Assembly: GCA_964020085.1 (NCBI GenBank)
Contig: OZ026601.1
Location: forward strand, 28,930,618-28,994,617
From: Micromussa lordhowensis
Taxonomy: Eukaryota > Cnidaria > Anthozoa > Scleractinia > Lobophylliidae
Reading direction: 5' to 3'
Length of the DNA: 64,000 nucleotides
Part shown: positions 41,929 through 62,300 of the stretch, one piece after another
How positions within the stretch are numbered: the stretch's first letter is position 1
How the letters are laid out: every line of letters starts with the position of its first letter
Position numbers and translations under genes: made by a program
The notes under the pieces: generated by a model
Seen by the model: the letters and a program-made list of their open reading frames with translations, nothing else
What the model was told of the DNA's origin: nothing
The model's database searches: none

Positions 41929-42173
41929 AGTAGTGTAGGAAATGGGGGAACTAGGACATTTCTGGATTTTACGCATCTCAGCGTAGTTAGTGTAAAAATC
42001 TGAGTCTAAAATATATGATATAATACACTAAAACAGCGTAGTTATGCGTAGGTAGTGTAAGTAGCGTAGATATCGTAAAAATTAGACATACTATTTTACG
42101 CACAAAAATGCCTAAAATGCGTAGGTTAGTGTAGGATATAGTAAAATTTAGATTGTTCTCACAATGCTGATTT
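41929..42173. repeat. Left terminal region (probable terminal inverted repeat) with GCGTAG/TAGTGTA motifs
   Basis: The first 245 bp contain no credible gene. The tip begins AGTAGTGTAGG. Related motifs recur in direct orientation: GCGTAGTTAGTGTA at 41981, GCGTAGGTAGTGTA at 42046 and GCGTAGGTTAGTGTA at 42119, with extra GCGTAG or GTAGCGTAG pieces at 42036 and 42061. Polintons have long terminal inverted repeats starting 5'-AG, often with subterminal motifs that could bind the terminal protein or integrase. The inverted partner is not in the window, so repeat length cannot be measured. Confidence 0.7.
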
Positions 42174-43109
42174 TTAAGACATGATAAATTTCCAACCAGC
42201 GTTCTCACCACCTAGATGTTCACATATTTTTTTCCAAATTTTATCATGTTCATAGAGTTTTAAACGATCTTTATACAATTTTAGCTTTGGTAAAAATTCA
42301 TTATATCCAAGTATTTGGCAAAATTTATAGATGATATATGAATAGGAAAAGAAATTTCTTCTATTTTTACCTTTAAATAATTCAAATGGCTCCTGAATTT
42401 GTAAAAACCTCATTTTCATTTTTTCTTCCATTATAGAAGTCATTTGTAATGGAGGTATTTTTGTTATTCGATACAAAATTTGTGTGGCATGATTATAATA
42501 ACGTAATTTACGATGTTTTTTAAGATATCTTTTAATATCTGCTTCTGTTAACTTTTCCAAAGAATTTTCCATCCTTTCACGAATGATTTCTTTGAAAATA
42601 TTATTAATAACATCTTCTGAGACTTTAAAACTTTCTTTGCCTTGGATATTGGCTAGATGATTTTTCTGGATTTGTTGAGACATTTATGCTTATTCCACAA
42701 CTTAGACAAGTACTTATCCCTTCATCGACGTTCAATACTCGAAATTTTTCACATGTATAACAATAATTATCTTCATTTATATTATTTTCACTGTATTGTA
42801 GTTCATCAGGGAAGATATTATATTTATACCTTTTATAATAAGAATTATCAACAACAAAATGTTTTGCTCTATTTTCTGTATGTAAAAAAAGTAAAATAGC
42901 ATTCTTTAATAAATAACTAGTACGAAGATTTTTGATATCATTTATTTCATTTTGTAACCTTATTTGTTCAATTTGATCAATTCTAGAATAATCTTTTTTG
43001 ATGGATAAATTTAGAATTTTTTTTTTTAAATCTGGTATTTTTTTTCTTTGAGAACAATTTCTGAAAGTTTTTGACGATGTAGATTGCCAATGGTCTCTTT
43101 GTTCATCAT
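42174..43109 (-). pseudogene. VLTF3-like late transcription factor (zinc ribbon + core), reading frame interrupted twice
   Basis: The 169-codon C-terminal frame (42174-42683) matches the poxvirus/NCLDV late transcription factor VLTF3 core: the NHLANIQGKE start, an Ile/Leu-rich helical body, KLRYYNHATQI, NFFSYSYIIYKFCQILG and a final DKIWKKICEHL block. Directly upstream, in a different frame (about 42628-43045), lies a zinc ribbon of form C-x2-C-x14-C-x2-C, with cysteine codons at 42697-42708 and 42751-42762, as in the N-terminus of VLTF3 proteins. The middle frame has no ATG; the likely start (43109, after a TATATT box) is in the same frame as the core. The gene thus shows two compensating shifts, near an A8 run (43038-43045) and an A5 run (42661-42665). 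Known VLTF3 proteins drive late viral transcription. Real decay, or homopolymer sequencing errors in an intact gene of about 310 codons, are both possible. The family call is firm; functionality is unknown. Confidence 0.78.
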
Positions 43110-43141
43110 AATAATTAATATACTTTATTCTTTAAAGTAGA

Positions 43142-43300
43142 TTAATCTTCACTCTCACTGCTCGTTGATTCCTCACTGCTCGTTGATTCCTCACTGCTCG
43201 TCGATTCCTCATCTGAATCAGGATTATAATCACTGTCACTACTATCAGTATCATGAAGTGGGTCTTCAGTTAAAAATTTTTTAAAATTAGGGACAGGCAT
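43142..43300 (-). CDS. Small acidic Ser/Glu-rich peptide (52 aa)
   Basis: A short ORF starts at the ATG at 43298-43300, which abuts a TATATATG motif, and stops at 43142-43144. The product begins MPVPNFKKFLTEDPLHD and becomes almost purely acidic and serine-rich, ending in three SSEEST-type hexapeptides encoded by 18-bp tandem repeats. It lies between the VLTF3-like gene and the polymerase, six bases beyond the second polymerase stop codon, on the same strand. Such acidic Ser tails suggest a phosphorylated or basic-protein-binding peptide, but I recognise no family. The start context and spacing support it being a gene; the low complexity argues for caution. Confidence 0.45.
   Translation of the reverse strand: MPVPNFKKFLTEDPLHDTDSSDSDYNPDSDEESTSSEESTSSEESTSSESED
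43155..43209. repeat. 18-bp tandem repeat (3 copies)
   Basis: ACTGCTCGTTGATTCCTC is repeated three times head to tail, the third copy with one T-to-C change. Because 18 is a multiple of three, it encodes repeating SSEEST on the minus strand inside the small acidic ORF. Confidence 0.85.
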
Positions 43301-43305
43301 ATATA

Positions 43306-46300
43306 TTATGAAATATTAAAATTTCCATATGCATAACTACTGATACCATCATCTAAAATATATCTTTTATCATCAAAAGGTGATAATGATACTTTATTAA
43401 TTTGGTAACTAGATATCTGATGATACTCTGACCGGATAGTTCGCATCTTATGCCTCATAGTATTACATTTTTGTAAGGTATCACGATAATCAGAGAGAGA
43501 TTATTCACTCTTAATGACATTCTTCTTGACACCTTTAGCAGTCTTGTTTTCCTTGTTTTCTGTCTTGTAACTATACATTTTACTTTTTAGACCAACAAAT
43601 TCAGTGATTGGATCACCAGCTGCTTCATCTTTGAATTTACCAATTACTTTTTTATTTTCTGCAAAAAAGAACTCTGACGATTTGGGATAATCACTATTGT
43701 CAAACCTTTCTTTATCTTTATATAAATCACTATAAAGATCTTCTGCTTTTATATGGTAAAATAAAGAATCAGTATCAGTAAAAAGTAACTTTGCATCAGG
43801 GTATTTTTTTCTGATATAGTTGTAATGGAAGTCATACATTAATGTTTTACTTAGATCTAGAATAGAGAATCCAACATAAGAGGGTTTATCTAAGACTAGT
43901 CTAGCCTTTTTCATTTGTACCCCAACTAAATTTTCATCAAATATTTTACTAGAAACATACATTGGTTGCCTTGTCAATTTCAATAAATGATCCGGATCAG
44001 TTTCTAATTTGATATTAGATCTTTTTCTTAGGTTTTCCATAGTTTTGCCAAAAACTGAATTATTCATTAGTTTAAAGAAGTCTTTTTCAAAACTATTCTT
44101 AGCATTTGTTCTTTTTTTTGTGTTAAAATCAATATAAGGTTTCATCCAAGGTTTCTGAGTAAATTCTAAGACTCTGTGAACCTTTTTCAACTTCATACCA
44201 AGAGATAAATAAAGCTGTAAATTTTTGTAATGTAATACATACTTTTCTTTATTCTTTAGATTAGGAACCAACTTGTGAACTCTACCACTGCTAATATTTT
44301 CTTTTTCTTTTAAATCTTTGCAATACTTTGATAACATATTATCAGTGATTAAAATCTTTTCTGGTGCTAATGGATAATCATTATGCAAATCGTGTAGCTC
44401 TTCTGGATATTCTAAATCTACTTCTAAAATGGCACCTTTTTTTGTATTATTTTTGTAATTTTCTAAGATGAAATCTTCAGAGTTAATCCATTTAAAATCT
44501 TTAGTTGGAAGTGACTGTGACATAGCCCATCCATAAAGATTATTTGCATCTAAATACATTAAATAACTACTTTCATCTTCTGGATTATAACACTTCATAT
44601 ACTTGTTGTTTGCAACAGCATGTCTATGAGTAATATTACTAATACCACCTCTCATTCCCTTTTCAATGAATAGTTGTTGATCTAAATCTGAAATTAAGTC
44701 TAGATTTATTTTTGTCATTCGGAGTAATGCATCCCATGATAACCCAGGTGCAGAGTAATAATGACAGGGATCTAGCCCATAGTCCTTCAAACATATAGTT
44801 CTGAAATTTTCAAATACATCTGCTAATAGTAGAACATCTGTACGCAAATATAAATCATGATAATAACCTAAGTCTTTAATTTGGAATTCACTCCATACTT
44901 GTTTTGCGTGCTCATAGTCACTCTCTGAAATATTTGTATCATTCAAAATACTATAAAAATCTTCTCTTGCTGGTAAAGACTTCTCACTGAATCGCTGGAA
45001 TGAGTCCATGTAATCATAAGGGTAAACACCTTTTCGCTTTATTAATCTAAATTGATCATCATTTGGAAAAGCTTTCTTTGAATAAAAGAATGCATTATCA
45101 CTTAAATTACTGCTTAGTCGATCTAAACTCTGACTCATAAATGAAAAACTGTCAATGAAAGTCAAATAATTACCTAGTCTAAAGCCAATATATTTCTCAA
45201 AATTACTTGCTATAACATCAACATTAATATTAAAATCTTGTCTTATTAAATGACCAATATTTTGCATGATAAAATGGCAGTCATAACCTTTAAGATTATG
45301 AAATATTACTGGAATTTTTAAATTTTCTGCACTAATAGACCATTTAAGATTACAATTACTATGAGCAGCACCACGATATTTACCTGTAATATGGCAGTGA
45401 TCTCTAACTTTTTGTTTTGAAGGTTTATCTTTATCTTTTTCTTCATTAAATTTTCTCTCACAAATATGACATATAGTAGAATTTTGGAAATGTGTTTCAT
45501 TTTTATCAGTCATAACTAATGGTTTCTGGAAATGTTCTATAACTATTTTTATACAATCTTTTACTTCACTCAACATTTTCATGATAAATTTTTCGATACA
45601 ATCTTCTCCACGGTATATTTCTACTGGTTTGGAATAACTATTATCATATCTACAGACTAATTTATATCCGTAACTACAAGCCTTATGACTTTGATAAGTA
45701 CTAGTGTAAGATTTATCATCACTAGGTAGGCAACCGTCTATTTTTTCTGTGATTGATTCAAAATCAGCGTAAATTACGAAAGGTGCAGGTAACATTTTTT
45801 TGTGATTTTTAAAATAAATTTTTGATCCTGCCTCGGGCATCTTTATCGCTTGAGCTCCATTAAGGAGCATGCAATCTTGCTTGTGATCTTCTAGGACACT
45901 AGCAGAACTACAACAATGTAGACAACGCAAACAAAAATATTTCTTTTCTTTGTGATCATTGAATGAAAACATAAATCGATCTAAATCCTTGATGAGCACA
46001 TAGTGGCTCTTGTCTCCTTCTTCAATCCATAGTAATTCCAAGTGGTCTGTAAAATTAGTTTCTGATATTCTGATAGGATAAGCTTCTCCATCATAACCAA
46101 ATACACAGATATTAATCTTATTTTGCTTTTCAATCTTATAAATATCTTTTACAGTGACTGGAAAAGTGATACCAGTGTAATCTAACCGTTTGACAGATTC
46201 TCGATCTGCCTTGGTTATTCTTTCCGGATGAACTATAAGTGGATTTAAATGCCTATTATGACACCATAGGAAACATTTATTGTCTGTATTTTTGGGATTG

Positions 46301-47340
46301 ATTAAACCCTTCATAGGGTTACGTAGTTCCTCAGGTAGTTCAATATATGATGATCCTCTTAATGGAAAGTAAGAGACAATATTAATGATATGTGAAAGTA
46401 CCGATTGGAATACCCAACCAGAACCTTCAGAGAGCCAAACAGCTATTAACTCTAAAATTCTTTCAATACCTTCATCGATACTCACTTCTATATCTATTCT
46501 ATTGGTAACCGTAAAAGGGCCAGCGTTAAAATAGGGTTCTCGGTAAATGACACCATCCTCAGTACTCTTTGATAATCGAACCCTTAGTGTAGTATTGTAT
46601 TTAAAACCCCTTCTATCTGATAATGATCGCATTAAAAGATCAAATATTTCTCGTTTAGTGCTACTTAACTGTATTGATGGGTCATTTCTATTGACAATTT
46701 GTACATCATAAGATTGAACATTACCTCTTAATGCATTGGATCGCTCAGTAATAGTGATGTCTTTAGGGATAAATTTCAAATTTCTTCTGAATTCTCTTAT
46801 AGTTTCAGGTCTATAATATGGAGCGATTTGATCAATCACATTTTTAACCTTTCTTTGAAGTCTTGTAGGTACAGGTTTTATAGGTCTTATTATTTTTAGC
46901 CTCGGTAAAGGCACTGGAGCTGCTGGTGGTTTTGTACGGGGTTTTGGTACTGGTGGGGGTGGTCTATATTCAGTAGGTCTTAATGGTTCTGGTAAATTGA
47001 CTGAGGGACTTATCGGATCATCTATTAAAGTACCTCCAAGGTATGAGTCTCTTAGTCTCCTAGCTGCAATCGAACGGATTAGTCGATTTTCAACATAATC
47101 TTCATGTTTCTTAGATCTTCGTGGTTGTGGGTTGGCAGGTGTGGCTGGTATTGGCTGACCTTGCGGACCTTTTTTTGCTTCATTAAGCTTACGAAAATCT
47201 GTCTTTAAATGCTGATATTTTCCCCCTTTTGAATATTTTTTCTTGCATATATTACAATACCAATCAGATGGTTTTGGTAATGTGTCTGCAGATATCTTTT
47301 TGTATTTAATTTTGGGTTTAATTTTAACTTTAAAATCCAT
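43306..47340 (-). CDS. polB: Protein-primed family B DNA polymerase, in-frame stop near the C-terminus
   Basis: This replicates the element. The main frame has 1,279 codons from the ATG at 47340, preceded by TATATATAG, to a TAA at 43501-43503. Motifs are intact: Exo I YADFES (D526), Exo II FHNLKGYD, Exo III YLRTDVLLLAD, Pol A YLDANNLYG (D931), Pol B NSVFG (1094-1098), Pol C DTDS (1189-1192), and KSKMYSY after it. A zinc finger lies at residues 29-44 (WYCNIC...GKYQHLKT), a CLRC...H...C finger further in, and an endonuclease VII-like DHCHITGKYRGAAHSNC segment near residue 650. After the TAA, the same frame stays open for 64 more codons to 43306 and resembles the normal end of Polinton polymerases, with a FDDKRYILDDG segment. 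The TAA is therefore probably a nonsense mutation or a sequencing error, not the natural end. Readthrough is a less likely alternative. Confidence 0.93.
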
Positions 47341-47414
47341 CTATATATAATAATATATGTCTAATTTTTTTTTTAAATTCTTAATTTTTTATTTATTATT
47401 GTAAAGTTCCTTTA

Positions 47415-47624
47415 TTATAAATCAATTAGTGTACCAGTAACTGGATTAGTGTATTTTAGAATGTTACGCTCATGTTTCTTTGTCTTTAGATGCATATATT
47501 TTCCTCTATAAGTGTAATTTTTTCCATTTCCACATACATCACAGTACCATTCAGTATTTTTCAGTCTTTCATTGGTAATTTTGTTCCATTTTTCTCGTTT
47601 CAATTGTTCTTCTGTTTTTTCCAT
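47415..47624 (-). CDS. Small C2H2 zinc-finger protein (69 aa), related to the polymerase N-terminus
   Basis: The ORF starts at 47624 directly after ATTATATAA and ends at 47415, 74 bp upstream of the polymerase gene. Its centre, WYCDVCGNG with GKYMHLKTKKHE, forms one C2H2-type finger (C-x2-C, then H-x5-H) with a basic, charged N-terminus. The same WYC-x2-C and GKY-x-HLKT pattern is found at residues 28-47 of the adjacent polymerase, so the two look like a duplicated module. A nucleic-acid-binding accessory role in replication is possible by position. No named family was recognised. Confidence 0.7.
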   Translation of the reverse strand: MEKTEEQLKREKWNKITNERLKNTEWYCDVCGNGKNYTYRGKYMHLKTKKHERNILKYTNPVTGTLIDL

Positions 47625-47655
47625 TTATATAATTATTTATAATATTCTAATTTTT

Positions 47656-48614
47656 TTAAATAATTTTTTTTAAATCCCCAGCTGGCACCCAACTGTTAAA
47701 TTCGTCTGGGTAACCTTTCCATTTGACTAATGCTTTTCCTTTAGACTTTCTGATAATTTTCTCTATTCTATAGACCTCTTGATCTGTCTTTTGTAACTCT
47801 TCTCTGTAGAAAGTACCCTTAATCACTTCACCATTTAAGTCTTTTATCTTATAAGTAATGGGATTAGTGAATCTAATTTCGTCTATGATGAAAACTTCTT
47901 CAGTCCAATTAGGAGTATAGCCTTTATCAAAGGTCACTCTTTTGTATTTGCTTATTCGGACTCTATCACCTATCACAAATGCTGGTTTATCATTCTTTTT
48001 ATTGTCTCTCGCTAAATCACCATATAAATTAAAATAAACTTTTCCATAGTTTTCAGGTTTTCTAGCTTGGATAGGCGTCATTCCTATTGATCTATGTCGG
48101 CTGTTGTTGTAAGATGCGAGTATTTTCGGAAGTATGTCAACGTAGACTGTATTGTTTTGCATAGTGAATCTCTTATACATTTTATCTTTGATAGTTCTAT
48201 TCCATCTCTCACAAACTGCTGATTTCTCTTCGTTTTCAGTGGAATAGACCTTTATCTTATCCTTAGCTAAGAGATCCAACACATTTTTGTTATAATATTC
48301 TTTTCCTTTGTCTACCCATAAAATTTAGGCTTATTTTTCACTAATAAGCTTTCAAACGCTTTAGCAACTTCTAAACCTGTTTTTGTCTTTAGAGGTACTA
48401 TCCAACCATATTTACTGAAAAGGTCTAAGACCATTAGTAGATATTTATAACCTCGATTCCATTTGCTAAGCTTTTGCATATCAACTAAGTCTGAACACCA
48501 GATATCATCAACATTATGTGCAATGACTCTTCGCTTGGTAAAATTTCGTTTTATAGGTTTGTGTAACTCATTAGCTAGCGCTTCCCATGTGTCTAAATTT
48601 TTAGCGTTTTTTTT
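47656..48614 (-). pseudogene. Retroviral-type (rve) integrase with C-terminal chromodomain, frameshifted and lacking its N-terminus
   Basis: The integrase inserts the element into host DNA. Two overlapping minus-strand frames are needed to cover it. The upstream frame (48312-48614) holds the first catalytic Asp in CSDLVDM and the YLLMVLDLFSKYGWIVPL core strand. The downstream frame (47656-48324) holds the second Asp in WVDKGKE and the catalytic Glu in CERWNRTIK, an SH3-like DNA-binding part (GDRVRISKYKR), and a chromodomain at the end (YRIEKIIRKSKGKALVKWKGY...SWVPAGDL). The break lies in a T-run near 48320-48323 (A-run in mRNA sense) and amounts to one base. The usual N-terminal zinc-binding domain is absent: the frame opens abruptly at an A10 tract that also ends the phospholipase-like gene, and has no ATG before the catalytic core. 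So the gene is broken in this copy or joined by an error. Confidence 0.85.
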
Positions 48615-49350
48615 TTACTCCTAAACCAAGTTTTTGTTTTGTATTAATAGTGTTTCTAGCCAGCCAATGACCCCACTGTCTCTCATTCCAGGGAATTGCA
48701 TCTAAAGCTTGGACCATTTTCTTGTCAGCCACATTTTTACATGATTTTACATTTACTCCCTTATCAGCACATACTGAGTAATCAACATCGTGTTGCATGG
48801 CTATAGCATCTGTCTTACCTGTTGGCTGATCATAGATTTCATAGATTTGGCCAGTATCACGATCGCATTTTACTTGTTTTTCTAAATCATTGTAAGGACC
48901 AGTATATTTGTGTCCTGGAAGAGTCCAACCAGCTTTCGGTTTAGGTAACTTACCTATTGCTTTATGAATATCGAGACCCCTTCCCCTTCCCCTTCCCCTT
49001 CCACTGATTTTTTTAGAAATATCATCAGCCAGAGAGTCAATTGCTCTATTCAAATACCTTTTACCAATGCCTTTAACTTTGTCTTTTACATAGTCAGATT
49101 TTATTGCTCGACTAGCTCCCCTTTTACCTAGGTTGTACAATCCTTTTGCACCAGCAGCCAACCCTTTGACAATTAGTTCATCAAAACCGCTTCCTTGCAT
49201 TTCCGCTTTAGATATAAAACGAAATTTTGTAATTCCACATTCAGCACAAATGCATCGCATTGCATTTCTACCATTTTTTGTAATTACAAAAGTTTCAGAA
49301 TTAGGTACACATTCTGTCCTTTTTCTTTGTCGAACGCAATAAGATAACAT
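48601..49350 (-). CDS. Phospholipase A2-like virion protein with N-terminal zinc ribbon (249 aa)
   Basis: The start at 49350 follows AATTAATAT. Residues 1-46 are a zinc-ribbon-like domain (YCVRQRK, Cys5, Cys14, Cys33, Cys35, Cys38, with NGRNAMRC), similar to small viral DUF5679-type domains. A basic amphipathic middle and a GRGRGRGRG stretch (117-125, from a GGAAGG-type hexamer repeat) follow. Residues 149-218 look like a parvovirus-type phospholipase A2: the Ca-loop-like YTGPYN (149-154), catalytic HD in MQHDVDYS (187-188), then Cys and an ADKKMVQALDAI helix. Parvoviral PLA2 acts in the virion to breach endosomal membranes during entry; a similar role here is inference. The reading frame is intact and ends in KKKR at an A10 run next to the broken integrase. 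Confidence 0.72.
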   Translation of the reverse strand: MLSYCVRQRKRTECVPNSETFVITKNGRNAMRCICAECGITKFRFISKAEMQGSGFDELIVKGLAAGAKGLYNLGKRGASRAIKSDYVKDKVKGIGKRYLNRAIDSLADDISKKISGRGRGRGRGLDIHKAIGKLPKPKAGWTLPGHKYTGPYNDLEKQVKCDRDTGQIYEIYDQPTGKTDAIAMQHDVDYSVCADKGVNVKSCKNVADKKMVQALDAIPWNERQWGHWLARNTINTKQKLGLGVKKKR

Positions 49351-49407
49351 ATATTAATTAATATTATAATAAATATATGTTAATCTATTGTTAACAAAGT
49401 TCCTTTA

Positions 49408-49644
49408 CTATAATATAGCTCCTATGAGGGGAATTCCCTTAAATGGACTGTTTTTACCCAGTAATAGCCCTTTTCCTTTTCTACCTCTTCCTACCGTACC
49501 TGACTTAACAAATTTAGTTTTTGTTATCCCACATTCTGCGCATTTACATTTCATCATGGCACGACCATTTCTTGTCTGTACAACCCTTTCTGAACCATGA
49601 ACGCACTCTGTCTGTTTTCGTTGTTTTACACAATAGCTTTTCAT
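49408..49644 (-). CDS. Small zinc-ribbon protein with hydrophobic C-terminus (78 aa)
   Basis: The first 46 residues copy the N-terminal ribbon of the neighbouring phospholipase-like protein: YCVKQRKQTEC, then NGRAMMKCKCAECGITK, with cysteines at the same positions (5, 14, 33, 35, 38). After a GRGRKGKG linker it ends in a short hydrophobic tail, LLLGKNSPFKGIPLIGAIL, quite unlike the enzyme domain of its neighbour. As I recall, a very similar tail ends a glycine-rich virion protein in related invertebrate Polintons, so the tail may be a transferable virion or membrane-interaction signal. The gene starts 35 bp from the divergent plus-strand ORF at 49680 and has AATATAG directly before its ATG. 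Confidence 0.7.
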   Translation of the reverse strand: MKSYCVKQRKQTECVHGSERVVQTRNGRAMMKCKCAECGITKTKFVKSGTVGRGRKGKGLLLGKNSPFKGIPLIGAIL

Positions 49645-49679
49645 CTATATTATAATTATTTTTTTTTTATTATTATATA
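49645..49679. promoter_or_regulatory. Divergent 35-bp AT-only intergenic promoter
   Basis: Between two start codons on opposite strands lie only 35 bp, nearly all A/T, with TATATAATGG at the plus-strand start and AATATAGATG at the minus-strand start. There is no room for separate conventional promoters plus leaders, so transcripts must begin near the start codons or inside the opposing gene. Confidence 0.5.
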
Positions 49680-49913
49680 ATGGAAGAAATTGAAATTGAC
49701 AATGAAATACGTAGAATAGAAGCGATGTATAAACATTACAAACTTCTTTATAGAAAAATTGCCTTTTTATGTTGTTCTGGAGAAACTAAAAGAGTGAGAA
49801 ATCTGAGAAATAGTTTGAAAAAAGATTTAAAAAAAATCCGACAAATCAAACAAATCCAACAAAATATAACTCCTTTCGCGCACCTGACGTTGCAGAAGTC
49901 CTCAAAGCAATAG
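49680..49913 (+). CDS. Small charged helical protein on the opposite strand (77 aa)
   Basis: This is the only plus-strand ORF within the minus-strand block that looks like a gene. It starts with ATG right after TATATA. It encodes MEEIEIDNEIRRIEAMYKHY and continues as a strongly charged, Lys/Arg/Gln-rich helix, perhaps a coiled coil, with a CCSG segment in the middle. Its last 12 bases overlap the 3' end of the protease gene tail to tail. No homologous family is recognised. The promoter-like motif, and the lack of any other gene in the span, favour a real gene. Confidence 0.5.
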   Translation: MEEIEIDNEIRRIEAMYKHYKLLYRKIAFLCCSGETKRVRNLRNSLKKDLKKIRQIKQIQQNITPFAHLTLQKSSKQ

Positions 49914-50333
49914 TTTAAAATAGTTTTCTATGAATTTTTCATTCTCTTCTGTGTCAAAGCTAAAAACTTGCAATAAATCGAAATAATCTACTCCTTTATG
50001 CATTTCATTCAAGAAATACAAGCAAAAATAGCCACAGGTTGTAGTATTGAGATTCTGTATTTGATCGTTTTGGTGTACTAAATTTAAGTTTTTCTCTTTT
50101 GCATGGTTTACCAACTCTTGAAAAGGTGGCATACCAAAAGAGTCAAAGTAATTTATTGTATCATCACGAACATAGGTTGTAACCCAATGACTACCACTCA
50201 TATAATGAGGTTCTAAATTATAAATAAAAAGCGCTAACTTATGATTATGAGGTACAGTCTGATCTCTGCTTAGGACATTTTTGATAGGTATCTTCAAGTA
50301 TTTACACCAATCTAAAAGATCAAAATTACTCAT
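49902..50333 (-). CDS. Adenain-like cysteine protease (maturation protease)
   Basis: The domain matches the adenovirus/Ulp1-like proteases that process capsid precursors in adenoviruses and Polintons. Counting from the ATG at 50333 (143 aa), the catalytic His lies in SGSHWVTTYV (H49), Asp in INYFDSFG (D64), the oxyanion Gln near 93 and the nucleophile Cys in TTTCGYFCLYFL (C100). I prefer this start because MSNFDLLDW is where the domain begins. The frame is open further upstream, to an ATG at 50456, but that part overlaps the preceding gene across an A16 run and reads as an out-of-frame copy of it. This is the only gene in the block without a TATATA box at its ATG, which would fit expression from the upstream gene's transcript. 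Confidence 0.85.
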   Translation of the reverse strand: MSNFDLLDWCKYLKIPIKNVLSRDQTVPHNHKLALFIYNLEPHYMSGSHWVTTYVRDDTINYFDSFGMPPFQELVNHAKEKNLNLVHQNDQIQNLNTTTCGYFCLYFLNEMHKGVDYFDLLQVFSFDTEENEKFIENYFKLLL

Positions 50334-50352
50334 TGGGATATCTTTATGGAAT

Positions 50353-51075
50353 TTAGGCTTTTTTACCTTTTTTTTTTTTTTTTCCTCCCCTGCCCCATGT
50401 CCCAATAAAAGGTGGTGGAGCCATAGGCATTCCCATACGAGGACCTCCTCCTCCATCCGATTTCCCCATTCTAGGACCCCCTCTTCCTTTTATACTTCCT
50501 CCTTTTAATGCATCAATAAGCATTGGAATACCAATACTAGCTATTAACGTTCCAATACCATTACCTACTTGTCGTTGTGTCAGTCGGAAAAGTAAGTCTT
50601 CTCCACCTTTATGAGCTCGGGCTAAATCTCCTATTTGTCCTTTAGTCAGTAGATTACCCAATTGAGCTAACATAAATAGTTTATTATTTGGTACTTGATA
50701 CATTTGTCCGCCACTAATTTTCTTAACTATTTGACTAGCACCTTCAGAAGCTAACCCTGCTAGAGCAGACAATCCTAGTGTTTTACCGATAGTTGGTGCT
50801 ACATTCTTTAATACTGGCAATATTGAGCTAAAGATACCAGACCCAGATTGACGCCTGATATTATACTTTGATATAGTAATTACCATTCCTCGATTAGCTG
50901 TTTTGGCCTTAGCGAGTCTCTTAACAGTATTCATTGGCACCATAAGAACATCGGAACCACTTAACGCATTTTTACTAAAGCGTAAACTTATTTCTTCTCT
51001 GTGTCTGTAAGCCTTAGTTAGTTTTCGTTTTTGCCCTTCAGAAAGTTTGACAGAAATTTGATGTAGTTCAGTCAT
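50353..51075 (-). CDS. Conserved Polinton virion-associated protein, glycine-rich C-terminus (240 aa)
   Basis: The product begins with a short conserved N-terminal region (VKLSEGQKRKLTKAYRHRE, then ISKYNIRRQSGSG), followed by a hydrophobic, small-residue segment at about 80-120 (SILPVLKNVAPTIGKTLGL...) and a second one near 170-190 (GTLIASIGIPMLIDALKGG). The tail is Gly/Pro-rich with PPPFIGTWG and ends in a lysine run encoded by A16. I recognise this layout as a common structural or membrane-interacting protein of invertebrate Polintons; its exact function is not established. The start abuts TATATA. The A16 tract (50368-50383) makes the true C-terminus uncertain, since one base of slippage would continue into the protease frame. 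Confidence 0.7.
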   Translation of the reverse strand: MTELHQISVKLSEGQKRKLTKAYRHREEISLRFSKNALSGSDVLMVPMNTVKRLAKAKTANRGMVITISKYNIRRQSGSGIFSSILPVLKNVAPTIGKTLGLSALAGLASEGASQIVKKISGGQMYQVPNNKLFMLAQLGNLLTKGQIGDLARAHKGGEDLLFRLTQRQVGNGIGTLIASIGIPMLIDALKGGSIKGRGGPRMGKSDGGGGPRMGMPMAPPPFIGTWGRGGKKKKKGKKA

Positions 51076-51141
51076 TATATATTATTTAGGGACTTTTTTA
51101 AATTCCTAAATAATATTTATTCTATGACTTTGGAATAGTTC

Positions 51142-51864: not shown

Positions 51865-51902
51865 ATATATTATATTAAAATATTTTTTCTAAGTATTTTT
51901 TT

Positions 51903-53147
51903 TTAGACAATAACTAATTGATCTCCCACTTTATCAACAACAACATCTTCTTCATAGAGAACAATTGCATGCACTCGGAAATCAGCAGCTGCTGCTTGTG
52001 AGAGGCGAAATCTTACGTTAAGTTGCTTTGGATCTCTGCTTACCTGTTCTGTTTGATAAGTCAGGTCAAAATATAACATTGGGTAAAGACTCGAAAAATT
52101 AGTGATATTGAGCTGAGTACCTGTATTATAATCATTCTTTTTCCATGAATAATTCATTAAATCATAATAGATTCTTGTTTTACTTTCTGAATCATATTCA
52201 AGTTCTGGATAGAAGACACCATTACCATATTCAAGACGACATGTGCTAAGATGACTATTATTATTGGCTGCGTTCAGTTTAAAAGTATCAAAAATATAAG
52301 GATTTGCTGACATATCATTGGTCTTAAGTCTCTGGAAGTAGAGGAAAACATGCTGTACTTTATCAATACTAGCTGAGATTCTGAAATCACCACTGTTTCT
52401 AGTAGTATCTGAACTTTGGTACATTTCTTTGAGGTATTTCCATTTACTGGGTTTTTGGTATTCACTGATGAATTTAGACATAAGAGCATCTTTTGGTTCT
52501 AGTCGGGGTACCCATAGATAAAAACGATCAATTACTAATCTCAATGTATCAACTGCCCCATATAATAGTTCAGCGTCCGGCGTCAGTTCTATTTCAAATT
52601 GGAGATCCATTGGAGGTAACAATCGTCCTTCTAATTCTTCGAAAAAAGAATACCTATTTAATGGAATACTTGTATTAACATGAGCTCTGTTAGCTGTTAA
52701 TAAACGCCTACTTTCCAAACCTGTGTTTGTATCATCTGAAGTGGCATCTGTATCTAAATACCATAAACTATTTTTGGCTGTACTACGCCCAAAATCATCT
52801 GAATATTCTAAAAGATTTTTTGCAAAAGTTACAAGATGAAGATTATCAGTGTCATAGACGATTTTTCCTGCACTCTTTATTACCATATGCTTAATTAATG
52901 AATGCGATCCATTAATAATTGTTGTTCTGGCGTCTGCATTGTCTCCACCATTTGCTCGAAGGTCTAATCTGAATCGCACTTCAAAAAAGGCGTTAAACCA
53001 ATCAAGCATAATACCCCGATCAGTAACATGAAATTTGTATCCTTTCTTATTTTGCTCTTGAGTATTGGCAGGAGCTCTTATAGCATCTTGAAGACGAAAT
53101 TGCACTAGTTCGTTTCTCTGTACGTACTCTGGTGATCTAAATGCCAT
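51903..53147 (-). CDS. Double jelly-roll major capsid protein (hexon-like)
   Basis: At 414 residues this forms the icosahedral capsid shell. It is beta-rich throughout, with the layout I know from Polinton capsid proteins: an N-terminal arm (MAFRSPEYVQRNELVQF), a first jelly-roll with DWFNAFFEVRFRL and a LLPPMDLQFEIEL strand at the end of a loop, RLVIDRFYLWVPRL, then a second jelly-roll (VQHVFLYFQ, FDTFKLN, YGNGVFYPELEY, LYPMLYFDLTYQ) and a final VHAIVLYEEDVVVD strand. It is somewhat shorter than many double jelly-roll proteins but shows no internal break. The ATG follows AAATATATA. It lies next to the small basic protein and the penton-like gene, as expected of a late morphogenesis cluster. 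Confidence 0.85.
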   Translation of the reverse strand: MAFRSPEYVQRNELVQFRLQDAIRAPANTQEQNKKGYKFHVTDRGIMLDWFNAFFEVRFRLDLRANGGDNADARTTIINGSHSLIKHMVIKSAGKIVYDTDNLHLVTFAKNLLEYSDDFGRSTAKNSLWYLDTDATSDDTNTGLESRRLLTANRAHVNTSIPLNRYSFFEELEGRLLPPMDLQFEIELTPDAELLYGAVDTLRLVIDRFYLWVPRLEPKDALMSKFISEYQKPSKWKYLKEMYQSSDTTRNSGDFRISASIDKVQHVFLYFQRLKTNDMSANPYIFDTFKLNAANNNSHLSTCRLEYGNGVFYPELEYDSESKTRIYYDLMNYSWKKNDYNTGTQLNITNFSSLYPMLYFDLTYQTEQVSRDPKQLNVRFRLSQAAAADFRVHAIVLYEEDVVVDKVGDQLVIV

Positions 53148-53179
53148 TATATATTTTTTATCAGATTTTTTTTTTTTCT

Positions 53180-53560
53180 TTAAGAGCGTGCTATTAGATT
53201 ATTAATCAGTGTATAAACTTCCTCCTGCGTTTTTGGTTTTGCTCTACCTGGCTTTGACTTTGTTGACTTTGTTGACTTTGTCGCTTTTTTAGACCCTGAG
53301 GATAGCCTTTTTCGGATAAGCTCACCAGATCGCTCTATAACTTTATCAGCAGCCTTTTTACCAACTCGTTCTCCCGCATGAGCGACACCAGCTTGTATTG
53401 CTTTTTTAGCAAATGGTTTTAAAACCTGTCCAGTTAAAGCACTAGCTACCTTTTTTAGTGGTTTCATAAGATTATCCACTATAATTCCATTGCCACGGTG
53501 TTTGTAGACATATCGTCCCATTCTTGGGTGATAAATCTTTTTGAACTCTCTTGACTTCAT
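53180..53560 (-). CDS. Small basic virion/core-like protein (126 aa)
   Basis: Strongly basic (Lys/Arg-rich), with an Ala/Gly/Val-rich amphipathic middle (GERVGKKAADKVIERSGELI) and a Ser/Thr/Lys tail containing TKSTKSTKSK from a short internal repeat (GACTTTGTT on the plus strand). It lies between the major and minor capsid genes. It could condense DNA in the virion, like adenovirus core proteins, or act as a membrane-active capsid-associated peptide. Members with this profile are common in Polintons, but the name varies and the function is unproven. The ATG overlaps TATATATG. Confidence 0.65.
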   Translation of the reverse strand: MKSREFKKIYHPRMGRYVYKHRGNGIIVDNLMKPLKKVASALTGQVLKPFAKKAIQAGVAHAGERVGKKAADKVIERSGELIRKRLSSGSKKATKSTKSTKSKPGRAKPKTQEEVYTLINNLIARS

Positions 53561-53566
53561 ATATAA

Positions 53567-54334
53567 TTAAAATGGAACTTTTTTTAAGATTAATGAAAAT
53601 GCAGTGTCAGCATGATTTAAATAGACTGGTCTTCTTAAGCCATCAGTTACATAGATTCGAACGCTTGAAACTCTTGTTTTATTGATAGGATTGTATATAA
53701 CACGACGCGGTTCAAGGGTAAAATTGTAAGAAGGTCTCAGCGTTCCTGTACCAAAACTAAAAACAATATCTGATTCTCTCCCATCTACTAATGAATCAGA
53801 GACTAAATCACAATGAATATTTAAGACATCTGTATCTTCTGATAGGTTAGGTACTTTGGGGCTAACGTTTCTCTCATCTCTTAAGATCACCTTATCGAAT
53901 CCTATTAGTTTACCAAAATTAGATTTACGCAGGTCAAGCTGATAGTTAGCGTCTAAAGTCACTAAGACTCTAAAAGTTGGTTCATCAAAAGTCACCGTAA
54001 TTGGAAATTCTTCATCACCATCACCGCGGACTGTTTTAGTCTTTTCCTTAATGTAATTATCAATATCAGTGTAATCCCAAACTCCTTTTGGAAAATCAAT
54101 ATCTGTAAATGTTTTCCCACCGTCTTTACTGTAAGCTTTCTTTTGATTGCTATAACCAGAATTTATATTTGTCCATGTAAAAGCCATTGAAATAATTTTA
54201 TTAAAACCAATATACCAAATCCCATCACTGTGTTCATAGTCCAGCGTTCTAGAAAACCTTGTAGTAAAATCACCAGGTCGATTACCAGGTTCATCTTTAA
54301 CTGCAAAACTGCTTAATGAGATTTCTCTCTCCAT
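53567..54334 (-). CDS. Penton-like minor capsid protein (single jelly-roll)
   Basis: This 255-residue, beta-rich protein fits the Polinton minor capsid (penton) protein that closes the fivefold vertices. Visible features are the start MEREISLSSF, an FTTRFSRTLDY strand, DGIWYIGFNKI followed by MAFTWTNINSGYSN, a VWDYTDIDNYIKEK segment, then KLIGFDKVI and a late NFTLEPRRVIYNPIN strand before a SSVRIYVTDGLRRPVYLN ending. It starts after TTAGTATATGG and is immediately followed by the basic protein gene, only 6 bp away. No break was found. Confidence 0.8.
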   Translation of the reverse strand: MEREISLSSFAVKDEPGNRPGDFTTRFSRTLDYEHSDGIWYIGFNKIISMAFTWTNINSGYSNQKKAYSKDGGKTFTDIDFPKGVWDYTDIDNYIKEKTKTVRGDGDEEFPITVTFDEPTFRVLVTLDANYQLDLRKSNFGKLIGFDKVILRDERNVSPKVPNLSEDTDVLNIHCDLVSDSLVDGRESDIVFSFGTGTLRPSYNFTLEPRRVIYNPINKTRVSSVRIYVTDGLRRPVYLNHADTAFSLILKKVPF

Positions 54335-54384
54335 ATACTAATGTAAATAATATTTACTAAACCCCGAAATATTTTTTGATAATG

Positions 54385-55425: not shown

Positions 55426-55495
55426 ATAATATTTATATTTTTTATATTATGCGAAATAATATGCGATATTTATTTAAAAAATATTAATTATATAG
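55426..55495. promoter_or_regulatory. Divergent AT-rich promoter region between virion protein and ATPase genes
   Basis: These 70 bp separate two start codons that point away from each other and mark the strand switch of the element. Both ATGs abut TATA-like boxes (AATATTATATG on the minus strand; AATTATATAGATG on the plus strand). No other landmark is seen. Confidence 0.5.
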
Positions 55496-56131
55496 ATGAA
55501 AATTCCTAATTATGATTCAGCTTCTAATAATGACCGCAATTTCAAACGACTGCTACCTTATATGCCTTCAGACACTTTTCGAATGTTAATTTGTGGACCA
55601 AGCGGTTGTGGTAAAACTAACGTTCTTATGCATATGCTTTATAATCTACTCTACTATGATAAGATTTACTTGTTTTCTAAAAATCTCGAGCAACCGAAGT
55701 ACAGACAACTATTAGAAACATTTCGACCCATTTCAGAAGAGGTTGGTTATGATGTCATAGAAGAGAGTAATGGTGATGTCATTCCTCTGGAAAGCCTAGA
55801 CCACGATAATCAAAAAATAGTTATCTTTGATGACTTTGCTTGTGAACGAAACCAAAAACCTCTCATTGAATATTTTATTGGTGGCCGTCATAAAAATTGC
55901 AGTGTAATCTATTTAAGTCAATCTTATTATCTCACTCCCAAAGACATCAGGTTGAATTGCTCTCATTTTTGTATTTTTGACTCTCCAAGTAATGCAGAGA
56001 CAGCAAGAATGTGTAAAGAAGTCAATGTACCTAAGAAGCGATTCGAGAGTGCGACTAGTGAGCCTTATAGTTTTGCGTACATTGATAAGACTAAAAAGAC
56101 AATTAGAAAAAATTTCAATGAAAATATATAG
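55496..56131 (+). CDS. A32/FtsK-HerA-type genome packaging ATPase
   Basis: This motor drives DNA into the preformed capsid. The 211-residue protein has Walker A GPSGCGKT (34-41), Walker B IVIFDD (107-112) followed by FACERNQ, and a VIYLSQSYYLTPKDIR sensor segment around residues 137-152, all typical of the A32-like packaging ATPases shared by Polintons, virophages and nucleocytoplasmic large DNA viruses. The length is normal for the Polinton form and the frame is intact. It opens the plus-strand gene block, with TATATAG directly before its ATG, and the next small ORF begins one base after its stop codon. Confidence 0.93.
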   Translation: MKIPNYDSASNNDRNFKRLLPYMPSDTFRMLICGPSGCGKTNVLMHMLYNLLYYDKIYLFSKNLEQPKYRQLLETFRPISEEVGYDVIEESNGDVIPLESLDHDNQKIVIFDDFACERNQKPLIEYFIGGRHKNCSVIYLSQSYYLTPKDIRLNCSHFCIFDSPSNAETARMCKEVNVPKKRFESATSEPYSFAYIDKTKKTIRKNFNENI

Positions 56132-56132
56132 G

Positions 56133-56357
56133 ATGGATAGAATTAGTTTGCCGAGAAGATTAACACACGAAATATTTAATGTGTTTAATGAGATAAATTT
56201 TTTATTAGAGAATCTTACTAGTAAAATAGAATGTTTAAAAGAAGTTGAAAAAAAATACAACGAATCTATTTCTGATGAAATATTATTATTAATTAAAAAT
56301 CTCAAAATGTTAGATTCTGATTACTTAAGAGATAAAGAAGAAGAAGAAGAAATTTAA
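56133..56357 (+). CDS. Small coiled-coil protein downstream of the ATPase (74 aa)
   Basis: The frame starts with ATG one base after the ATPase stop, with ATATATAGG before it; an in-frame ATG at 56118 would overlap the ATPase by 14 bp. The product (MDRISLPRRLTHEIFNVFNE...) is a leucine- and glutamate-rich helix ending in EEEEE and could form a coiled coil. No family was recognised. Tight spacing to the ATPase suggests co-expression, perhaps as an assembly partner. Confidence 0.5.
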   Translation: MDRISLPRRLTHEIFNVFNEINFLLENLTSKIECLKEVEKKYNESISDEILLLIKNLKMLDSDYLRDKEEEEEI

Positions 56358-56372
56358 TTTAGTATATTATAT

Positions 56373-59300
56373 ATGGGTTTTAGCAATGGACAACTTGAAT
56401 CAACATCAGCAACTGGAAGAGGTGAAAAAGGTGATCCTGGTTTACCTGGAATTGGATTTAGTCTAACTGATGATGGTAATTTTGATATTGATAGTAAGCG
56501 ATTAACTGAAGTAGCCCTTCCTATCGATAATAATGATGCAGCAACAAAAGAGTATGTAGATAATAACCTACCAGCTATTGATTTGTCACCTTATCTGAAA
56601 AGAGATGGAACAACTTCAATGACTGGTCATTTAAATATGAATAATCATAAGATTAGTGATTTAGAAGATGCTACTAATGATAATGATGCTGTACCTCTAA
56701 AACAATTAAAGGAGATGACAACAGATCATAGGACAAATTATCATTTGCAACCTAGTTTTACTTTTTATAAAGATTTTGGTGATAAAGCAGAATTAACTAA
56801 AGTCTCTATACCTATTCCTGGGCACACTGATCATTTTGAACTATTAGAAGCGCCTCGAGAAGGGACGCAATCTGGTTATGCTTATTCTACTGTTCGACTA
56901 GTGAACAATTTAGAAATAGATCCTAATTATTCTATCGTTTTTGAAATATTTGGATATGATGGAACAAATATAGTTACAGATGGTGATTCAGATAGGCTAT
57001 TATTTACAAATGTCACTGGTAATGCAAACATAATTGATTTTAGTCATGATTGGTTTAGCAATTACGCAAAAGCTTACATAATATTTAATAGTTCTAAAAG
57101 AGATGTGAACATCCGTTTACAATTTCGATATTATGGTTCCAGTAGCTCTAATTTTAAATTTCTATTTTTTAGTAGATGTGTCAAAGGAATACAAAGGACT
57201 AGTTTTGATCATAGATTATTTAATGTTAAAAGTACTGATTTTTCAGGAACAATATTAAATTTTGAACCGATAAATATGAATAATGAAAAGATAATCAATA
57301 TTGGTAATCCTACAGACCCTAAAGATGCAACAACCAAAGAATATGTTGACGATGAAGACGCTAAACAGGATATTGCTATTAATGATTTATCTTCTAGAAA
57401 AGCAGATAGGTCAGAAGTATTACTCCTAAACGGAAGCCAAAACATGACTGGTAATCTTTCTATGAATGGAAATAGGATTCTTAGCTTGCCTATTCCAACT
57501 GGGCCGCAGCAACCTGTGACAAAGACTTATTTAGAAAGTCAAATTGCTTCCATACCACAGCCTGATTTAAGTCTTTATCTCAAAGTAGATGGTTCACGCG
57601 CTATGACAGGAGATCTCAATATTGGTAGTAAAAAAATAACAGATTTAGAGACTCAAGATGATGTCCCAATCATTGATTACCCTAATGCTTTAAAAGATTC
57701 TAAAATGGCTGTTAATAAACTTTATGTCAATGAAAACTTTTTAAAATTAAAAGGTGATGACTATGACTTAAAAGGTAAACGGATAAAAAATACTGAACCA
57801 TATGGTGTAAATACTTTTGATACAAATGATTTAGTCTCCAAGGCATATGTCCAAGCAGAAATAAGTAAGCTACCTACAGATGTATTAAAATTGGATGGTT
57901 CACGCGCTATGACTGGAAGTCTCCAAATGGGTGATAATGCTATCACTGGAATTAGGAGTAGTTCAGCAGATAATGCAGCCCTAACAGTTGGTGGCGCAAA
58001 ATCTACTTATCTACCACTTTTAGGAGATAGAGGTATGGAAGGAGATCTCAATATGGGGGGTAATGCAATTATAAATATAAAACCTTTTGTTGAAGATGAT
58101 TCAAGTCAAGCTGCACAAAATGCTCAATCTAATTATGTTATTAACTTTGGATATTTTCACGGACAAAGAGGAGATTTAAAAAGAGAAATAAATGATGTCT
58201 CTGCAGCAGCGCTTAATAGAAAAAATCCTGATCCGATGGAAGACTCCATTGATATGGCTAATCATAGCATTATCCGCTTGAAAGATCCAAAGTCATCAGA
58301 TAGCTTTCACGCTTCCACTGTTAACTATGTTAATAGGACAATTACTGATAATAACGCTGTAATTAACACTTTGATTACAGATAAAGTCAATGAATCTGAA
58401 GCACTTAATATAAAAGCAAACCGACAAGAGAATGAATTCTCTTTTGTCATGGATGATGACCTATTTAAAGAAGATGATGATGATATTACTAAAGCTGGAA
58501 AAAAAGATAGAGATTTTTATCAAATTAAACGAGAGACTTATCGATTTAAAATTAAGTATGATGATTCCATCCATTATTATAGTACACGATTAACTATTGA
58601 TTTAAAATCGTTAGATTTAGGTGAGTATACATTAGCATTTGAAATGTATTATGGTAATAAAGTGGATAAAGATGAAGTGGTTGTTAACGCTGTTAGTGAT
58701 ACTTTGAATGTATCACGTAATAATACAAATACTTTTTCCGATCACAGTAGAACAATTATCAATTTTCGTAAATATGGAAACATTGGGATTATTGTTTTAG
58801 ATATTGATTTAACTTTAAAGTATAAGAGTGGTGAAACTTATGATTTTTTCACAAACATCTTTGTAGTCGTTTATGGAGTAAGTGGTCATCAGAATGACGT
58901 TGACTCGCGAATTTGGGATAGATTCTATACCATCAGAAACAAAATCATCTATTATGAAGCACCTATTAATATGGGTAATCGACAAATAAAAGGATTAATT
59001 GATGGAAATGAAAACAGTGATGCTGTTAATGTGAAACAACTGAATGAAACAGAAGATAATATGGTAAAATATGTTAATGGAGAAATTGTAAAAGTAAATA
59101 CTGAAATAGCAAAAGAAAATCCTACTATTAATGAAAATAAAAATTTTATAGAAATAATAGTAAAATATATATTAAGTAATAATTCAAAGATTTCTTTAAT
59201 AAAAGATTTGTATTTTTCTGATAGTAATGAAGGTAGAACACCAAATACATATGCGTTTGTAACTACTGGTGATAACACAGGTGATTTAACTTTTTATTAT

Positions 59301-62300
59301 GTCTTCCAGCATAGTGCAATTACTAATAATGTAATGGCTGTACATTTTGATATTAAGAATAAAAAAGGTGTATTTATTTTTGTTGATAAAAGCAAAGTAG
59401 TAATTTCAGAAAATCCTACAATAGATGAACCATCTTTAAGATCATTTAATATTCCAAATAATTCTTTAGGAAAGCAAGTCCTATTTTGGATTTGGGTAAA
59501 AGGCACAGTTATGAATATAATTTTTAGTGGAATTAGTGCTCCAATTAATGTGGGTAATTCTTTTGTAGATACTACTATAAGAAGATCTATCGTTTTTGAA
59601 ATATTTGGATATGATGGAACAAATATAGTTACAGATGGTGATTCAGATAGGCTATTATTTACAAATGTCACTGGTAATGCAAACATAATTGATTTTAGTC
59701 ATGATTGGTTTAGCAATTACGCAAAAGCTTACATAATATTTAATAGTTCTAAAAGAGATGTGAACATCCGTTTACAATTTCGATATTATGGTTCCAGTAG
59801 CTCTAATTTTAAATTTCTATTTTTTAGTAGATGTGTCAAAGGAATACAAAGGACTAGTTTTGATCATAGATTATTTAATGTTAAAAGTACTGATTTTTCA
59901 GGAACAATATTAAATTTTGAACCGATAAATATGAATAATGAAAAGATAATCAATATTGGTAATCCTACAGACCCTAAAGATGCAACAACCAAAGAATATG
60001 TTGACGATGAAGACGCTAAACAGGATATTGCTATTAATGATTTATCTTCTAGAAAAGCAGATAGGTCAGAAGTATTACTCCTAAACGGAAGCCAAAACAT
60101 GACTGGTAATCTTTCTATGAATGGAAATAGGATTCTTAGCTTGCCTATTCCAACTGGGCCGCAGCAACCTGTGACAAAGACTTATTTAGAAAGTCAAATT
60201 GCTTCCATACCACAGCCTGATTTAAGTCTTTATCTCAAAGTAGATGGTTCACGCGCTATGACAGGAGATCTCAATATTGGTAGTAAAAAAATAACAGATT
60301 TAGAGACTCAAGATGATGTCCCAATCATTGATTACCCTAATGCTTTAAAAGATTCTAAAATGGCTGTTAATAAACTTTATGTCAATGAAAACTTTTTAAA
60401 ATTAAAAGGTGATGACTATGACTTAAAAGGTAAACGGATAAAAAATACTGAACCATATGGTGTAAATACTTTTGATACAAATGATTTAGTCTCCAAGGCA
60501 TATGTCCAAGCAGAAATAAGTAAGCTACCTACAGATGTATTAAAATTGGATGGTTCACGCGCTATGACTGGAAGTCTCCAAATGGGTGATAATGCTATCA
60601 CTGGAATTAGGAGTAGTTCAGCAGATAATGCAGCCCTAACAGTTGGTGGCGCAAAATCTACTTATCTACCACTTTTAGGAGATAGAGGTATGGAAGGAGA
60701 TCTCAATATGGGGGGTAATGCAATTATAAATATAAAACCTTTTGTTGAAGATGATTCAAGTCAAGCTGCACAAAATGCTCAATCTAATTATGTTATTAAC
60801 TTTGGATATTTTCACGGACAAAGAGGAGATTTAAAAAGAGAAATAAATGATGTCTCTGCAGCAGCGCTTAATAGAAAAAATCCTGATCCGATGGAAGACT
60901 CCATTGATATGGCTAATCATAGCATTATCCGCTTGAAAGATCCAAAGTCATCAGATAGCTTTCACGCTTCCACTGTTAACTATGTTAATAGGACAATTAC
61001 TGATAATAACGCTGTAATTAACACTTTGATTACAGATAAAGTCAATGAATCTGAAGCACTTAATATAAAAGCAAACCGACAAGAGAATGAATTCTCTTTT
61101 GTCATGGATGATGACCTATTTAAAGAAGATGATGATGATATTACTAAAGCTGGAAAAAAAGATAGAGATTTTTATCAAATTAAACGAGAGACTTATCGAT
61201 TTAAAATTAAGTATGATGATTCCATCCATTATTATAGTACACGATTAACTATTGATTTAAAATCGTTAGATTTAGGTGAGTATACATTAGCATTTGAAAT
61301 GTATTATGGTAATAAAGTGGATAAAGATGAAGTGGTTGTTAACGCTGTTAGTGATACTTTGAATGTATCACGTAATAATACAAATACTTTTTCCGATCAC
61401 AGTAGAACAATTATCAATTTTCGTAAATATGGAAACATTGGGATTATTGTTTTAGATATTGATTTAACTTTAAAGTATAAGAGTGGTGAAACTTATGATT
61501 TTTTCACAAACATCTTTGTAGTCGTTTATGGAGTAAGTGGTCATCAGAATGACGTTGACTCGCGAATTTGGGATAGATTCTATACCATCAGAAACAAAAT
61601 CATCTATTATGAAGCACCTATTAATATGGGTAATCGACAAATAAAAGGATTAATTGATGGAAATGAAAACAGTGATGCTGTTAATGTGAAACAACTGAAT
61701 GAAACAGAAGATAATATGGTAAAATATGTTAATGGAGAAATTGTAAAAGTAAATACTGAAATAGCAAAAGAAAATCCTACTATTAATGAAAATAAAAATT
61801 TTATAGAAATAATAGTAAAATATATATTAAGTAATAATTCAAAGATTTCTTTAATAAAAGATTTGTATTTTTCTGATAGTAATGAAGGTAGAACACCAAA
61901 TACATATGCGTTTGTAACTACTGGTGATAACACAGGTGATTTAACTTTTTATTATGTCTTCCAGCATAGTGCAATTACTAATAATGTAATGGCTGTACAT
62001 TTTGATATTAAGAATAAAAAAGGTGTATTTATTTTTGTTGATAAAAGCAAAGTAGTAATTTCAGAAAATCCTACAATAGATGAACCATCTTTAAGATCAT
62101 TTAATATTCCAAATAATTCTTTAGGAAAGCAAGTCCTATTTTGGATTTGGGTAAAAGGCACAGTTATGAATATAATTTTTAGTGGAATTAGTGCTCCAAT
62201 TAATGTGGGTAATTCTTTTGTAGATACTACTATAAGAAGATCTATCGTTTTTGAAATATTTGGATATGATGGAACAAATATAGTTACAGATGGTGATTCA

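Follow-up and report, generated by a model that had tools for sequence, protein, structure and literature searches.

A gene of the VLTF3 late transcription factor family is a regular component of an amplified Polinton family in a stony coral

VLTF3 is a family of late transcription factors of poxviruses and giant viruses. It is used as a diagnostic gene of the Nucleocytoviricota, and the mriyaviruses were placed in that group partly because VLTF2 and VLTF3 were at the time not detectable outside it (PMC11253617; this and all other papers are cited here from excerpts of their text). Possession of VLTF3 does not imply possession of a viral RNA polymerase, which is absent from both medusavirus (PMC8557863) and the mriyaviruses (PMC11253617) even though both encode the factor. 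Several reports bring the gene, or poxvirus-like genes, closer to Polintons. In Amoebidium, VLTF3 occurs with capsid genes and an adintovirus-like family B DNA polymerase (PolB) in integrated elements (PMC11244446), and poxvirus-like virion genes are combined with an adintovirus-like PolB and integrase in an arrangement described in a preprint (PMC11071296). VLTF3 is also on record from the sea anemone Exaiptasia pallida, considered below. Given the Amoebidium precedent, VLTF3 in Polinton-related elements is not wholly new. The excerpt of PMC10120064 contains no passage with late-factor terms. The statement in the initial annotation of this DNA that VLTF3 lies outside the usual Polinton gene set agrees with PMC11253617 but needs qualification, the gene having once been reported in passing in Polinton-related elements (PMC11244446). 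Relative to the excerpts of PMC11244446 and of other open-licence PMC texts, what is added here is a regular place of the gene inside the ends of the element, its intactness over many copies, and promoter-like motifs.

The window analysed here, a stretch of 64,000 nucleotides from the genome of Micromussa lordhowensis, begins with a satellite (window 1-41928) in which a 219-bp unit is repeated about 192 times, with recurrent short open frames of 61-72 aa. A Polinton is inserted inside this satellite and is flanked on both sides by the 6-bp target duplication CGCGGC. Its left end (AGTAGTGTAGG) is at window 41929 and its right end lies outside the window at position 28997787 of the contig (C7); the copy is 25,242 bp long, with 22,072 bp inside the window and the remainder continuing beyond the right window edge. 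On the minus strand, the genes from the left end are VLTF3, a small acidic ORF, the predicted PolB, a small finger-like ORF, the integrase, and a DUF5679/PLA2 protein, followed by a DUF5679 ORF, the predicted protease, two ORFs with no assigned function, the predicted capsid protein, a 128-aa ORF, a penton candidate and a 353-aa ORF; beyond the 353-aa ORF, the plus strand encodes a packaging ATPase, a 133-aa ORF and a giant fibre-like protein (Table 1).

Table 1. Features of the Polinton in the window, with coordinates, strand and the basis of each assignment.
Feature	Coordinates	Strand	Basis
Polinton left terminus	41929..42173	.	AGTAGTGTAGG end with sub-repeats, bordered externally by the 6-bp target duplication CGCGGC
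VLTF3 core domain, C-terminal part of gene	42174..42683	-	PF04947, E=4.1e-37
VLTF3 middle frame with C-x2-C-x14-C-x2-C zinc ribbon	42625..43131	-	Sequence, shuffles, coding-frame switch, four Cys in 30/33 places
Predicted VLTF3 start	43026..43109	-	ATG at 43109, in the phase of the core, stop after 27 codons in this copy
Small acidic ORF, 52 aa, between PolB and VLTF3	43142..43300	-	ORF
Predicted family B DNA polymerase	43306..47340	-	Exo and pol motifs in order
Small zinc-finger-like ORF	47415..47624	-	Visual inspection; no family match of significance
RVE integrase with C-terminal chromodomain, in two separate frames in this copy	47656..48614	-	PF00665, PF00385
DUF5679 + phospholipase A2-like protein	48601..49353	-	PF08398, 2.5e-11; PF18930, 2.4e-6
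Predicted adenovirus-type cysteine protease	49902..50489	-	PF00770, 0.0013, below curated cut-off
Predicted major capsid protein, double jelly-roll type	51903..53198	-	PF21738, 7.2e-4, below curated cut-off
Penton / minor capsid candidate	53567..54337	-	Inferred from position and size; no significant Pfam family
A32-type packaging ATPase	55496..56131	+	PF04665, 1.4e-14, above cut-off
Giant fibre-like protein, past window edge	56358..63998	+	T7 tail fibre and YadA stalk matches; repeats

The left terminus (window 41929-42150) is built of the sub-repeats AGTGTA (four times) and GCGTAG (five times), the latter being absent from the rest of the element inside the window. Its 23-nt end is found in the genome in 87 forward and 89 reverse copies (control, 0), and the first 100 of the 176 ends listed include 46 inward-facing pairs with a median length of 20,154 bp. 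The pairs identify an amplified family of elements, each about 20 kb long, and in all ten pairs checked, including that of the window's copy, the element is bounded by 6-bp target duplications. A target-site duplication of 6 bp is a feature of Polintons/Mavericks. Set against the defining gene set (in part after PMC8715426), the Polinton features found are terminal inverted repeats, the 6-bp duplication, an RVE integrase, a double jelly-roll capsid protein, an A32-type ATPase and an adenovirus-type protease. Because the ends and target duplications are combined with PolB motifs and with sub-threshold matches to capsid, protease and integrase, the element fits a Polinton, and its identity as a Polinton, proposed in the initial annotation, is supported by ends, duplications and gene content.

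VLTF3 belongs to this Polinton, lying between the terminus and the predicted PolB inside the terminal repeats. A VLTF3 match is situated no more than 300 nt from an end in all 46 pairs among the first 100 of the 176 ends listed, and the end of the PolB gene adjoins VLTF3 on the same strand in 31 of the 33 distinct VLTF3 places fetched from the genome. At 13 of these 33, the window's included, the same terminus starts exactly at the position equivalent to window 41929 with flanks that differ by eye, and at the remaining 20 the alignment to the terminus begins further inside. A predicted capsid gene is present at the expected distance on the strand of VLTF3 in nine of 13 stretches, with two others largely masked and two lacking it. 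The two places without a PolB end in the fetched stretch, L049 and L042, are possibly recombined; the capsid gene at the expected distance is present for L042 and absent for L049.

The remaining genes are assigned with varying confidence. Polintons encode a protein-primed family B polymerase. The predicted PolB contains, in order, what we take to be the Exo I-III and Pol A-B-C motifs; it has no Pfam polymerase match, and the single-sequence structure model of a PolB piece (pLDDT 32.7) is of no use. An in-frame stop at 43501 removes its last 64 codons in the window's copy and is private to that copy (one of 30 readable copies). The integrase matches PF00665 at 1.2e-4, below the curated cut-off, and its chromodomain matches PF00385 at 3.1e-7, above it. 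The DUF5679 zinc module opens two adjoining ORFs (window 48601-49644), one of them fused to the PLA2 domain. In the fibre-like protein, a 1281-aa piece matches T7 tail fibre (1.2e-10) and YadA stalk (1.6e-8), and the gene contains a 2655-bp unit (window 56931-64000) that is present twice in full and a third time as far as the window edge, the repeats being identical where compared; four of the 46 element pairs are 23.8-25.8 kb long as opposed to about 20 kb, as if fibre units had been gained or lost. No RNA polymerase subunit, D5 helicase or VLTF2 was found by Pfam among the 19 ORFs and ORF pieces of the part read, which stops short of the last 3.2 kb of the copy. A sequence search of the PDB with the VLTF3 core, the predicted capsid, an integrase piece and PolB returned nothing below E 0.6.

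The initial annotation saw a C-terminal core resembling VLTF3 and proposed a profile search as the check, and the search bears it out: the core frame matches PF04947 (Pox_VLTF3, Pfam) with 127.9 bits against a cut-off of 25, with core residues 7-165 aligned to positions 15-167 of the 168-position profile. A chance profile match is ruled out by this score, by the E value of 7.7e-31 that is retained when the first 41 codons of the core are omitted, and by the lack of any match (0/14) in control genomes. A single-sequence structure model of the core has a pLDDT of 48.8. VLTF3 proteins carry a zinc ribbon N-terminal to the core. Directly upstream of the core, in another frame, is the ribbon CYTCEKFRVLNVDEGISTCLSC, also as initially proposed; the pattern C-x2-C-x10-25-C-x2-C arises in only eight of 20,000 shuffles of this frame, and ribbon and core share one frame in 18 of the 33 places. 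No Pfam zinc-ribbon family reaches its cut-off, the best E values being 0.11 for the ribbon frame and 0.008 for a 36-residue piece. Judged by a codon-usage model that was trained on seven genes of the element other than VLTF3, the coding frame switches at about 42690. The predicted start at 43109 corresponds to one that opens a 329-aa frame in another copy (L018), and because it is in the phase of the core and not of the ribbon, and runs into a stop after 27 codons, the window's VLTF3 has at least two frame breaks. It is a broken gene that yields no full-length protein from one frame.

Searches of other collections were negative. No relative of the core, PolB, ATPase, capsid or PLA2 protein was found in IMG/VR, and none of the core in GTDB contigs or phage records, results that say little because those collections may not cover eukaryotic viruses; at 16 IMG/VR loci selected by a pattern derived from the window, tblastn matches are at chance level (E 0.56 or worse), and PHROGs and NCBIfam give no useful match for VLTF3.

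Within the coral genome (580.8 Mb, 1383 contigs) the gene is abundant. A search with the core found 319 candidate places, the best 150 of which were scored and are 95-100% identical, and stop-free frames of at least 300 aa are present in 146 of these 150. A Pfam-family search found 392 candidates, and all 150 that were scored are above the cut-off, four of them with an internal stop; the same PF04947 search of the 14 control genomes gave no matches. From these searches 36 stretches were fetched, comprising the best eight per search and 20 from the Pfam-search list chosen mostly for differing frame lengths, and 33 are distinct, the window's own included. The four ribbon cysteines are present in 30 of the 33 and a stop falls inside the core in three. 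An ATG-started frame of more than 320 aa is present in 18, giving single-frame proteins of 329-346 aa, all of which hold ribbon and core together, and two intact natural copies match PF04947 with E=2.4e-41 and 5.5e-43. At two other places (L019 and L020) a 336-aa open VLTF3 frame has its first ATG inside the core, which could reflect decay, assembly error or slippage. Protein identity of the core to that of the window extends down to 82.5% among the fetched copies, and the median dN/dS, calculated from 25 stop-free distinct sequences of 28 over 156 core codons and 203 pairs with dS>0.05, is 0.42 (range 0.16-0.90), a moderate constraint such as might be expected for copies partly decaying after insertion. 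The open frames in the scored matches and the constant position in the 46 listed pairs thus answer to the expectation of intact homologues at the same place in other elements of this genome, and the suggestion that this lineage may bring its own late-gene factor gains support, as neither of the adverse outcomes named beforehand, a failed profile match or a lack of intact homologues, occurred.

A second feature of the element is an A/T motif at its gene starts. At window 42000-56400, all 14 genes with clear starts have a TATATA-type hexamer in the last 25 nt before the ATG, touching or closely preceding it; the protease, integrase and one ORF have unclear starts and are left out of the count. 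The motif is any of eight hexamers, a set picked after the sequences had been viewed. The same hexamers are found in the next three upstream 25-nt blocks of four, five and one of the 14 genes, precede 52 of 542 other ATGs, and reach 14/14 in none of 5000 composition-matched shuffles. For six of the genes, 25 distinct upstream sequences from other copies of the element were compared, and 20 of them keep the motif: 4/4 for the capsid, 5/5 for a 242-aa ORF, 3/3 for a 248-aa ORF and 2/2 for the 353-aa ORF, with lower values for the penton candidate (4/6) and the 128-aa ORF (2/5). Ahead of VLTF3 itself it is present in 13 of 18 copies. A Pol II TATA box precedes the RNA start by about 30 nt, and a motif touching the ATG therefore fits an initiator better. 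The motifs at the ATG resemble the late promoters of asfarvirus, which require TATATA across positions -1 to +5 relative to the RNA start (PMC5294985), and most TATATA motifs in kaumoebavirus and asfarvirus fall between 0 and -20 bp relative to the ATG (PMC5974111). An 'early' motif common to the upstream regions of PolB and the next ORF was also considered, and was dropped because it is present at many other places of the element.

We propose that the Polinton's own VLTF3 is likely a late-gene switch that would guide an RNA polymerase encoded elsewhere, probably RNA polymerase II of the host, to the ATG-abutting A/T motifs of the predicted capsid genes. The motifs would then be promoters read by VLTF3, which may recruit host RNA polymerase II, perhaps via TBP, to the A/T initiators; if recruitment were to follow DNA replication, the capsid genes would be read late. 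Use of the host enzyme is proposed by analogy with medusavirus and the mriyaviruses, which have VLTF3 without RNA polymerase genes. Several observations count against this explanation. In Amoebidium, demethylation reactivated 144 adintovirus genes, but capsid genes were not seen to be reactivated (PMC11244446). The motif is missing from some copies of VLTF3, the penton candidate and the 128-aa ORF, and the hexamer set was chosen post hoc. The dN/dS is only moderate, and a long ATG-started frame is found in little more than half of the fetched places (18/33).

The main rival to host RNA polymerase II is the polymerase of a helper virus. The element would then be the satellite of some large DNA virus that shares its host, and VLTF3 and the promoters of the element would let the helper's RNA polymerase read the capsid genes. 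Virophages use giant-virus promoters. Moreover, virophages and at least some Polinton-like viruses parasitize giant viruses (PMC11071308), and poxvirus late factors act with the viral RNA polymerase (PMC8400408); medusavirus and the mriyaviruses nevertheless have VLTF3 without an RNA polymerase of their own, and we consider the satellite explanation fairly unlikely. Quite improbable, in our view, is that VLTF3 came from a giant virus by capture and is copied with the element as a passenger that plays no part in its cycle. The stops within the core (3/33 fetched places and 4/150 scored matches), the 15 of 33 places lacking an ATG-started frame of more than 320 aa, and a dN/dS that is not strong would all be consistent with a passenger, although such a gene would not be expected to keep the same place in all 46 terminal-repeat pairs that occur among the first 100 of the 176 ends, long open frames in 146/150 scored matches (the best 150 of 319), or its four zinc cysteines in 30/33 places when the cores have diverged from that of the window to as little as 82.5% protein identity.

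There are two further alternatives. One is that the element by design translates VLTF3 from separate frames or by slippage, for which the long open frames of L019 and L020, with their first ATG inside the core, could be cited; however, a single ATG-started frame is present at 18 of the 33 places, and the window's copy also has its private PolB stop, which makes programmed assembly of the protein very improbable. The other, for which the broken frames of the window's copy could speak, is that the window contains a giant-virus insertion, or an assembly join, beside a Polinton as opposed to one element. This reading is rejected because the Polinton terminus (41929) and the target duplication CGCGGC lie outside VLTF3, and as the same layout also recurs at many chromosomal places we regard it as practically untenable. 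A decayed copy of an element that carries its own probable late switch remains our preferred reading of the window.

In this amplified Polinton family VLTF3 is a regular feature, situated beside PolB and inside the terminal repeats. VLTF3 therefore cannot alone mark an insert or contig as derived from a giant virus, and single VLTF3 matches in animal genomes may be Polinton-borne. The many natural copies offer material on the origin of the late switch and on its use without a viral RNA polymerase. A more far-reaching proposal, which we regard as unlikely, is that this Polinton lineage runs a giant-virus-type late switch, composed of VLTF3 and asfarvirus-like TATATA initiators, on host RNA polymerase II, and that VLTF3 predates the Nucleocytoviricota in a Polinton-like ancestor; if true, a supposed giant-virus signature gene would be older than the giant viruses.

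The VLTF3 of the Nucleocytoviricota (vaccinia A2L; NCVOG0262; PF04947) is matched here by a core over nearly the whole profile and by an N-terminal zinc ribbon (18/33 places), and differs in that the gene described here is carried by a Polinton that integrates, has a predicted PolB and an RVE integrase, and shows no RNA polymerase gene in the part read. The mriyaviruses are similarly small (35-45 kb) and have VLTF3 and no RNA polymerase, but unlike this Polinton they have no DNA polymerase and encode an HUH endonuclease (PMC11253617). In Exaiptasia pallida, VLTF3 is likewise in an animal nuclear genome (PMC5294986), where it is described as single-core-gene copies amid animal genes. The Amoebidium adintovirus-like elements, complete ones being about 30 kb with long terminal repeats (PMC11244446), have in common with this Polinton a Polinton-related PolB, capsid genes, VLTF3 and integration, a comparison made by description only; in that report a Dam methyltransferase is listed and VLTF3 is named in passing (PMC11244446). 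With canonical Polintons/Mavericks the element shares the terminal inverted repeats, the 6-bp duplication, a predicted PolB, an RVE integrase with a chromodomain, and the protease, capsid and ATPase genes, and it is distinguished from them by an extra gene, VLTF3, and perhaps by the A/T motifs that abut its ATGs.
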